Position numbers and translations under genes: made by a program
In this document: positions 10,140 to 13,171 of the stretch, one piece after another
Layout of the letters: every line of letters starts with the position of its first letter
Numbering within the stretch: the first letter of the stretch is position 1
The notes under the pieces: model-generated
What the model saw: the letters and a program-made list of their open reading frames with translations, nothing else
What the model was told of the DNA's origin: nothing
The model's database searches: none
Source of the DNA: Rhodobiaceae bacterium
GTDB lineage: Bacteria; Pseudomonadota; Alphaproteobacteria; RS24
NCBI GenBank assembly: GCA_018660505.1
Contig: JABJKE010000015.1
Location: forward strand, 1-41,925
DNA: 41,925 nt
Direction of reading: 5' to 3'

Positions 10140-10532
10140 CTAGTGCACTTGCGGGGCATCATAGGGGCTATCGAGCGAGAAAGCGGGCACTTCGACATCG
10201 AAGTCATCGCCGTTTTTACTCTGCATATGATAGCTGCCGCGCATGAAACCACTGGCCGTGTTAAGCGGCGTGCCAGACGAATACGTATAGCTTTCCCCAG
10301 GGGACAAAACGGGCTGCTCGCCCACGACGCCAGCGCCGCGCACTTCTTGTCCGCGCCCCATGGCATCGGTGATTTGCCAATATCGATTGAGCAATTGCAC
10401 GGTTTCCTCGCCAATATTTTCGATGGTGATACGATAGGCCCAGACAAAATATTGCTCGTCCGGATCGCTATCTTTTTCCAGAAAATGGGTTTCTACCGAA
10501 ACCGAAATATTGCGCGTAATCGCTTTCACCAT
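10140..10532 (-). CDS. apaG: ApaG protein
   Basis: ApaG is a small single-domain beta-sandwich protein (fibronectin-III-like); its exact function is unclear, with reported links to divalent cation resistance in enterobacteria. The 130 residues match the family. Typical blocks are [41 protein letters not shown], the loop [15 protein letters not shown] and the turn [10 protein letters not shown]. It lies between metZ and trkH on the same strand, 43 bp after metZ. The apaG-metZ neighbourhood is common in alphaproteobacteria. Confidence 0.93.
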
Positions 10533-10575: not shown

Positions 10576-11766
10576 CTATGCCAAAACATGAGCCAAAGCT
10601 TGGGCGAAATCATCAACCAGGTCTTGGCCGTCTTCCAGCCCAATCGATAGGCGCAAGACGTTGTCATGGATGCCCAAATCGGCTTTTACGTCGTCGGGCA
10701 ATTTGGCGTGCGTGGTGGTGGCCGGATGGGTGATGAGCGTTTTGGCGTCGCCCAAATTATTGGAAATCAAGGCGATGTCTAACGCATTGGCCAGCGCGAA
10801 GGCTTTTTCTTTGCCGCCCTTTACTTCAAAGGCGATGAGGTTGGAGCCACGGGTCATTTGCTTTTGCGCCAAAGCATATTGCGGATGGCTTTCATGGCCC
10901 GGATAAAACACTTGGCCGATGGCGTCTTGCGCCACTAAAAATTGCGCCACGCGCTCGGCGTTTTGGCAATGCGCCTCGACCCGCAGGGCCAAAGTCTCGA
11001 GCGATTTTAACAATACCCAAGCGTTGAACGGCGCCATTGAGGGGCCCGTCTGGCGAATGAAATTGGCCAGCTCGTCTTTAATGTAAGCTTGGCTGCCCAG
11101 CACAATGCCGCCCAGACAGCGGCCCTGTCCGTCGATATGTTTGGTGGCTGAATAGACCACCATATCGGCGCCAAATTGAAACGGCTTTTGCAGCACGGGG
11201 GTCGCAAAAACATTGTCGACGACCAGTCGCGCGCCCGCCGCATGGGCGATATCGGCCACGCTTTGCATATCGATAATCTCGAGCAAAGGATTGCTTGGCG
11301 TCTCTAGAAAGAACACTTTGGTTTCGGGGCGCACGGCCTGCTGCCAGGCGTCTAAATCTGTGCCATCGACCAATGTGCAGGCGACGCCGAATTTCGGCAT
11401 CAGGGTTTCCACCACATAGCGGCACGAGCCAAAAAGCGCGCGCGCCGCCACAATATGGTCGCCGGCTTGCAATTGGCTCATCAGGCAGGCAGTCACGGCC
11501 GCCATGCCGGTGGCGGTGGCGCGCGCATCTTCGGCGCCCGCGCCTTCCAGCGCCATCATGCGGGTTTCGAAAGCGCGCACGGTCGGATTGCCGAAACGCG
11601 CGTATATATAGCCATCTTCTTCTTCCTTGAAGCGGGCCTCGGCTTGTTCGGCGCTGTCATAAACAAAGCCAGACGTCAGATAGAGCGCCTCGGAGGTCTC
11701 GCCAAAGTGCGAGCGCGACCCACCGCCATGGATAAGCTGCGTTTGCGCTGACCAATTTTTCTTCAC
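10576..11766 (-). CDS. metZ: O-succinylhomoserine sulfhydrylase
   Basis: This PLP enzyme of the Cys/Met metabolism family makes homocysteine from O-succinylhomoserine and sulfide, the direct sulfhydrylation route to methionine. It has 396 residues. The N-terminal TQLIHGGGSRSHFGETSEAL block, YARFGNPTV, TATGMAAVTA, VVDNVFATP and the PLP lysine at about residue 209 in SATKH are visible. The start is GTG, 6 nt after a perfect AGGAG. The leader carries a SAM-II riboswitch, a terminator and a hairpin just before the ribosome site, so expression should fall when SAM is high. It heads the metZ-apaG-trkH group. O-acetylhomoserine as substrate is an alternative that sequence alone cannot exclude. Confidence 0.92.
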   Translation of the reverse strand: MKKNWSAQTQLIHGGGSRSHFGETSEALYLTSGFVYDSAEQAEARFKEEEDGYIYARFGNPTVRAFETRMMALEGAGAEDARATATGMAAVTACLMSQLQAGDHIVAARALFGSCRYVVETLMPKFGVACTLVDGTDLDAWQQAVRPETKVFFLETPSNPLLEIIDMQSVADIAHAAGARLVVDNVFATPVLQKPFQFGADMVVYSATKHIDGQGRCLGGIVLGSQAYIKDELANFIRQTGPSMAPFNAWVLLKSLETLALRVEAHCQNAERVAQFLVAQDAIGQVFYPGHESHPQYALAQKQMTRGSNLIAFEVKGGKEKAFALANALDIALISNNLGDAKTLITHPATTTHAKLPDDVKADLGIHDNVLRLSIGLEDGQDLVDDFAQALAHVLA

Positions 11767-11782
11767 CTTTTGCTCCTATACC

Positions 11783-11803
11783 CCCGCGAGGTTTTCTCGC
11801 GGG
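11783..11803 (-). promoter_or_regulatory. GC-rich hairpin next to the metZ ribosome-binding site
   Basis: An 8-bp perfect stem (CCCGCGAG / CTCGCGGG) with a 5-nt loop sits 5 bp before the AGGAG of metZ. No T run follows it, so it is not a second terminator. It may control access to the ribosome site or protect the processed 5' end. Confidence 0.5.
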
Positions 11804-11806
11804 CAT

Positions 11807-11830
11807 AAAAAAACCGACCCAAAGGCCGGT
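11807..11830 (-). terminator. Intrinsic terminator in the metZ leader (attenuator)
   Basis: On the minus strand ACCGGCC pairs with GGTCGGT (one G-U pair) and the stem is followed by seven T. It lies 12 bp after the SAM-II aptamer and before the metZ ribosome site, the position of a transcription attenuator controlled by the aptamer. Confidence 0.7.
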
Positions 11831-11842
11831 GCCCCGGCGTGA

Positions 11843-11893
11843 TTTAGCGTTTATTTAACGTGGTCGCAAGCCAGCCGGCTCAAATCTCCACAA
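11843..11893 (-). ncRNA. SAM-II riboswitch aptamer (metA motif) upstream of metZ
   Basis: On the minus strand GTGG (11891-11888) opens a stem that closes with CCAC. Between them are AGATTTG and GGCTTGC, and after them come the conserved CACGTTAAATAAA and the terminal CGCTAAA. These blocks, in this order and spacing of about 50 nt, are the conserved core of the SAM-II pseudoknot, which binds S-adenosylmethionine and is largely found before methionine genes in alphaproteobacteria. The position just before metZ agrees. Recognised by eye; a covariance-model search with Rfam RF00521 would settle it. Confidence 0.88.
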
Positions 11894-11901
11894 GTCGGGG
11901 A

Positions 11902-11930
11902 AACATGTCGAAAATTAGCTGTCGCGTCAA
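11902..11930 (-). promoter_or_regulatory. Candidate metZ promoter
   Basis: On the minus strand TTGACG (11930-11925) is followed after 17 bp by CATGTT (11907-11902). Transcription would begin near 11895, immediately before the SAM-II aptamer, which is where a riboswitch promoter should be. The -35 is good and the -10 is weak. Confidence 0.5.
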
Positions 11931-12004: not shown

Positions 12005-13171
12005 ATGAGTGAAGAGCCGCAAACCGAACCGCTTTTTCCCGTTGAGGAAGACGCCAAAATACCTCTCATGACCAAGGGGCAAACCCATGCGGTCGGTATT
12101 TTGCCGGCCCATGGCATTGCCAATATGGTGCGCGAGAAACAAATCTGGGCGTCGGGCGGGGTTTTGGACGAACAAATTCAACCCGCCAGCCTCGACTTGC
12201 GCTTGGGCGAGCAAGCTTATCGTGTGCGCGCCAGTTTTTTGCCTGGCGAAAAAGGCACCGTGGCCGAGAAACTGAAACAATTGGCCTATCATAAAGTCGA
12301 TTTGAAAAATGGCGCCGTGTTAGAAACCGATTGCGTGTATTTGGTACCGCTGATGGAGGCGGTTAATTTACCGACGCGCACCACGGGGTTTGCCAATCCG
12401 AAAAGCTCTACCGGACGCATCGATGTGTTCACCCGCCTGATTACCGATTTCGGCACAGAGTTCGACAAAGTGCCGGCTGGCTATAAAGGGCATTTATATC
12501 TCGAAGTGAGCCCGCGCACGTTTCCTATTTTGGTTCGCACGGGATCGAAATTATCGCAATTGCGGTTTCGCCGCGGCGCCCCCTCGCATTCGGATGCGGA
12601 GCTGAAACGCTTGCACGAAGATATGGGGCTGGTGGATGGCCCGGCCAACATTGATGGCGGCTTGGGACTATCGATTGATTTGCAGGGCGATAAGCAAACC
12701 AGTTTGGTGGGCTATCGGGCCAAGCGCCATGCCGGGCTTATTGATGTAGATAAGCTGGCGGCTTTGCCGATTGCGCAATTTTGGGAGCCGATGTATCGCG
12801 ATGATTTGGGTCATATTATTCTCGACCCCGATGAATTTTATATTCTGGCGTCGCGCGAGGCGGTCACGATTCCGGCCAGTCATGCAGCAGAAATGATGCC
12901 GTTCAATCCTTTGGTTGGCGAGTTTCGGGTGCATTATGCGGGCTTTTTTGACCCCGGCTTTGGCGCCGCCGAGGCCAATGGCAAAGGCTCGCGCGCCGTG
13001 CTTGAAGTGCGCTCGCGCGAAGTACCCTTTATTCTTGAGCACGGGCAAATTATCGGCCGCTTGGTCTATGAACGCCTGACCGATTTACCCGAAACGCTTT
13101 ATGGGGCCGGGCTCAACTCCAATTATCAGGCGCAAGGCCTGAAATTGTCGAAGCATTTCAAGCAGGCGTAA
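12005..13171 (+). CDS. dcd: 2'-deoxycytidine 5'-triphosphate deaminase, long alphaproteobacterial form
   Basis: It deaminates dCTP to dUTP and so supplies dUMP for thymidylate synthesis. At 388 residues it is about twice the classical 190-residue Dcd and corresponds to the long form found in alphaproteobacteria. The N-terminal half has VLDEQIQPASLDLRLG and the catalytic-type block NPKSSTGRIDVFTRL; a second dUTPase-like half contains HIILDPDEFYILASREAVTIP and GFFDPGFG, the C-terminal loop usual in the family. The ATG at 12005 has only a weak GAGAAG before it. Divergent from metZ, and followed after 1 bp by the lrgA-like gene. Confidence 0.92.
   Translation: MSEEPQTEPLFPVEEDAKIPLMTKGQTHAVGILPAHGIANMVREKQIWASGGVLDEQIQPASLDLRLGEQAYRVRASFLPGEKGTVAEKLKQLAYHKVDLKNGAVLETDCVYLVPLMEAVNLPTRTTGFANPKSSTGRIDVFTRLITDFGTEFDKVPAGYKGHLYLEVSPRTFPILVRTGSKLSQLRFRRGAPSHSDAELKRLHEDMGLVDGPANIDGGLGLSIDLQGDKQTSLVGYRAKRHAGLIDVDKLAALPIAQFWEPMYRDDLGHIILDPDEFYILASREAVTIPASHAAEMMPFNPLVGEFRVHYAGFFDPGFGAAEANGKGSRAVLEVRSREVPFILEHGQIIGRLVYERLTDLPETLYGAGLNSNYQAQGLKLSKHFKQA

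Follow-up and report, generated by a model that had tools for sequence, protein, structure and literature searches.

The metZ gene occupies the minus strand of the window, by which we mean the whole 41,925-nucleotide stretch that was analysed. Reading this strand from 11930 down to 11764, one meets in turn a probable promoter, a SAM-II aptamer, a terminator, a second hairpin, the AGGAG ribosome site and the GTG start codon (Table 1). The initial annotation spanned 11783-11930, an interval that includes the probable −35 hexamer and omits the ribosome site and the start codon. The metZ product scores 541.2 bits with TIGR01325, exceeding the cut-off of 510.05. Downstream, on the same strand, metZ is followed by apaG (10140-10532, NF003967); its divergent neighbour, on the plus strand (12005-13171), encodes a long 2'-deoxycytidine 5'-triphosphate deaminase of 388 aa (NF005734). 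MetZ is 90-91% identical to that of its closest named relatives, MAGs that carry the label Rhodobiaceae bacterium or Alphaproteobacteria bacterium; for a relative at 78% identity, the label is PS1 clade bacterium.

Table 1. Features of the metZ locus, from the promoter to the gene.
Feature	Position	Strand	Details
Probable promoter TTGACG-N17-CATGTT	11902..11930	-	TTGACG 11930-11925, CATGTT 11907-11902
SAM-II (SAM_alpha) aptamer, RF00521	11822..11901	-	covariance-model search (cmscan), 47.3 bits, gathering score 36
P2 pseudoknot 5' strand CCGGC, in the P1 loop	11874..11878	-	complementarity with P2'
P1 3' strand CCAC	11860..11863	-	partner GTGG at 11891-11888 (RF00521 alignment)
P2' strand GCCGGGG	11832..11838	-	predicted to pair with the P1 loop (SAM bound) or the terminator 5' arm (no SAM)
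Intrinsic terminator ACCGGCC-TTTG-GGTCGGT + T7	11807..11830	-	hairpin 11830-11813, T7 11813-11807; 7 bp, −11.0 kcal/mol
Second hairpin CCCGCGAG-AAAAC-CTCGCGGG	11783..11803	-	GC-rich, 8 bp, core −15.1 kcal/mol; between U tract and ribosome site
Shine-Dalgarno AGGAG	11773..11777	-	6 nt 5' of GTG; identical AGGAGCAAAA in closest relatives
metZ, O-succinylhomoserine sulfhydrylase	10576..11766	-	396 aa, GTG start at 11766, TIGR01325

The initial annotation had recognised a SAM-II core upstream of metZ, with a covariance search as the means of checking it. The search returned a significant match to RF00521 (E 1.1e-7 within the window), and the aptamer is present as a single copy in the genome, which is 94% complete. 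The comparison covered 28 genomes, all of one family, for the order. A match above the cut-off was found in 24 of them, one in each, and these include all 15 genomes of good quality. In all 24, promoter, aptamer, terminator, ribosome site and gene follow one another in the same order.

The ATTTG, CTTGC and GCTAAA blocks of the aptamer are present in the window and invariant across a 19-row alignment of the family. The P1 stem covaries, GTGG/CCAC being replaced on both strands together by GAGG/CCTC in six leaders (L016-L021), and the P2 and P2' strands are complementary in 24/24 family leaders. When own P2 partners were compared with permuted ones over 97 leaders, none of 2000 permutations did as well, in a test in which kinship among loci remains. 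The window has the lowest RF00521 score of its family (47.3 versus 53 to 69 bits), and one base fewer than the family 5' of GCTAAA. This short joint is probably harmless, as equally short joints exist in other leaders with scores above the cut-off. Considering the score above the gathering threshold, the P1 and P2 helices with their covariation, the core segments and the methionine/SAM gene downstream, the leader is, on sequence grounds, an RF00521 SAM-II riboswitch, which would bind SAM.

A TTGAC-N17-CATnTT promoter (−35, 17-nt spacer, CATnTT) is common to 23 of the 24 family leaders. The copy in the window was not called by a generic sigma-70 scan. From its spacing, transcription is predicted to start near 11895. 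An alternative pairing around the aptamer, between CCCCG (11900-11896) and CGGGG, was seen in the minimum free energy (MFE) structure. It was rejected, because the predicted start would leave CCCCG outside the RNA, and because it is absent from relatives outside the subclade.

The aptamer is followed by a predicted attenuator. A terminator scan gave two overlapping sites, one of them the hairpin listed in Table 1, against a mean of 0.5 in shuffled sequences. The GCCGG strand located 3' of GCTAAA has two complementary partners: the aptamer loop, with which it forms P2, and the terminator 5' arm, with which it can form a GCCGG-GGCA-CCGGC antiterminator hairpin of −9.3 kcal/mol. The antiterminator strands are complementary in nearly all family leaders, and P2, P2' and the terminator arm vary in a coordinated manner, as GCCGG/CCGGC, GACCGG/CCGGTC or GGCCGG/CCGGCC. 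Over 97 leaders of the class, the own antiterminator duplex (−12.7) was stronger than with GC-stratified permuted partners (−11.6; 0/2000, kinship among loci remaining) or with shuffled arms (−8.1; 0/200). The U run is just four long in three family leaders (L005, L006 and L012). The leader thus has a GC-rich hairpin with a U tract and, upstream, a pairing that excludes this hairpin, and the attenuator with seven T described in the initial annotation is supported, now with a conserved antiterminator. In MFE folds of the emerging RNA, transcripts of 80 and 86 nt contained the antiterminator, and those of 92 nt or more the terminator. The terminator being somewhat more stable than the antiterminator (−11.0 versus −9.3 kcal/mol), the choice between the two is probably kinetic.

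We consider it very probable that the metZ leader is a transcriptional SAM-II riboswitch, working as an OFF switch. RNA polymerase would start about 4 nt 5' of P1. With SAM bound, the P2 pseudoknot would keep GCCGG in the aptamer loop, so that ACCGGCC could form the terminator stem with GGTCGGT. Transcription would then stop near 11807, within the U tract, and the product would be a short leader RNA of some 90 nt. When SAM is absent, GCCGG would pair with CCGGC in the 5' arm of the terminator, leading to read-through into metZ, and only this read-through mRNA would contain the second hairpin. Such a strand exchange is the standard arrangement of an OFF switch, and the element is essentially ordinary.

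Two metZ leaders are among the closest known systems. That of Sinorhizobium meliloti (PMC9373788) shares with the window a SAM-II aptamer before metZ, a predicted SAM-dependent intrinsic terminator and a short riboswitch sRNA, here a predicted one. S. meliloti differs in having a second SAM-II copy before metA, where one copy is found in the 94% complete genome of the window, and we saw nothing in the S. meliloti paper on a hairpin separating terminator from ribosome site. In the metZ leader of Mycoplana dimorpha (L145), an aptamer of 84.7 bits with RF00521 is followed by AACCGGCC...GGCCGGTTTTTTT and then by metZ, and its P2' strand, GGCCGG, is likewise complementary to the terminator arm. In contrast to the window, its start codon comes shortly after the U tract, and there is no comparable second hairpin.

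According to the initial annotation, SAM-II is usually described as a translational switch, and the metZ leader was set against this norm. The contrast proved mistaken. A terminator, scored within 170 nt as a hairpin of −7 kcal/mol or stronger with a U tract behind it, was found in 98 of the 132 SAM-II leaders located (the family, a class sample and named metZ loci), a count in which some of the scored negatives show visible terminators missed by the scan. Corbino et al. (2005) had reported terminators in many SAM-II representatives (PMC1273637), Barrick and Breaker (2007) agree (PMC2258182), and Scheuer et al. (2022) described for S. meliloti metZ a terminated sRNA of about 100 nt, commoner at high SAM (PMC9373788). 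The translational picture fits the much-studied Sargasso Sea RNA, thought to act purely on translation (PMC9373788), and not the SAM-II class. By analogy with that RNA, the metZ leader could be a purely translational switch whose terminator-like hairpin is incidental. We give this almost no credence: the ribosome site is not part of P2', AGGAG being about 55 nt further downstream, and both terminator and antiterminator are conserved.

Some leaders of the sample may be built otherwise. L116, the second SAM-II leader of genome G304, apparently has two tandem terminators after the aptamer, GGGGGCTTTTTCGTTGG... and then CTGCGGGGGCTTTTTCG. Five SAM-II aptamers (L026, L031, L036, L148 and L150) have no recognisable hairpin and U tract within 170 nt, and may use another expression platform.

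The GC-rich hairpin that the initial annotation placed next to the ribosome site does exist, but it does not contain AGGAG, as its stem ends 5 nt 5' of it. The 29-nt segment of this second hairpin folds at −18.1 kcal/mol (z −4.55 against dinucleotide shuffles). It is the most stable of 86 segments sampled ahead of Shine-Dalgarno sequences in the same genome, from the window and about 150 kb more (mean −4.2, sd 3.3). That it might be a repeated palindromic element was ruled out, since it is unique in the genome, with no other copy within 3 mismatches. A 6-bp hairpin is found at this position in the three closest relatives (L022-L024), and hairpins of different sequence in two other genera. Eight of the other 11 leaders from the genus (L009, L010, L016-L021) and three leaders from another genus (L007, L014, L015) have no hairpin at this position that is significant against shuffled sequences. 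The second hairpin is thus missing in most other members of the genus.

The initial annotation saw in this hairpin a second level of control, SAM terminating transcription and the hairpin hiding the ribosome site in read-through RNA. The hairpin is far more stable than expected by chance, it is predicted to be extendable by pairing of the U tract with AGGAG, and there is precedent in principle for dual platforms (PMC2258182). However, upon folding of the two states, the predicted cost of opening AGGAG was 2.4 kcal/mol in the SAM-bound form versus 3.9 kcal/mol in the SAM-free form, the wrong sign for repression by SAM, and across 24 relatives the shift in accessibility had no consistent direction. 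Neither was there an excess of complementarity between the hairpin/ribosome-site region and the switch strands in the window (L001, z +1.0), and for the ribosome site against these strands, 204 of 1000 permutations were equally good. A first test of own versus permuted partners, between the switch and the ribosome-site region, had given 0/1000. This apparent significance was likely due to the differing GC content between genomes, and with dinucleotide-shuffled controls the excess was small (mean z −0.39).

Known dual platforms are likewise proposed to combine both levels in one leader, but there the terminator stem includes the ribosome site, or the start codon is adjoined by a second aptamer (SAM-V, PMC2704228), and neither is seen in the window. 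Dual platforms have been recognised by a ribosome site within the ligand-controlled structure, or by a terminator no more than 10 nt away from the start codon (PMC2258182). In the metZ leader, no hairpin includes AGGAG, and 46 nt separate the terminator stem from GTG. With AGGAG outside the hairpin, an accessibility change in the wrong direction, no special complementarity and a hairpin missing in most of the genus, a translational SAM level is unsupported, and we regard dual control as very improbable. The transcriptional half of the earlier proposal stands, and the translational half does not.

Pairing of the U tract with AGGAG atop the second hairpin could instead dampen translation of every read-through mRNA, independently of SAM. 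In the MFE structure, UUUU is paired with the ribosome site, outside the second hairpin, and the cost of opening AGGAG rises from 0.8 kcal/mol in the downstream RNA alone to 2.4-3.9 kcal/mol when the U tract is included. This pairing is weak, however, consisting of G-U and A-U pairs, and relatives devoid of the second hairpin have an unchanged U tract and ribosome site, so that such a damper appears unlikely, if less so than control by SAM. Most likely, the second hairpin would act constitutively, for instance by keeping the ribosome site away from the GC-rich leader, by stabilising the message or by a mild damping through the U tract.

Similar hairpins occur in other SAM-II terminator leaders, which could be counted in favour of dual control as well. 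Outside the family of the window, 38 non-redundant leaders of the class have a U tract and a ribosome site that are 14 nt or more apart. Of these, 12 had a hairpin before the ribosome site (p ≤ 0.05), versus 5.8% of ordinary genes in the genome of the window, a crude comparison in which the background is a single genome. Since the tested segment ends at the ribosome site, the latter is itself outside the hairpin. Hairpins of this kind are seen, for example, in L130, L121, L077, L029, L096 and L057. SAM-II attenuator leaders might have repeatedly gained a constitutive hairpin between U tract and ribosome site, an unrecognised second module that would tune or protect the read-through message. 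This we view as speculative and unlikely.

The excess of hairpins before the ribosome site in SAM-II leaders may merit a proper survey. The present comparison provides a compact description of strand exchange in SAM-II leaders and, with a marine PS1-clade/Rhodobiaceae-like lineage, enlarges the set of bacteria in which a terminator-type SAM-II riboswitch precedes metZ.
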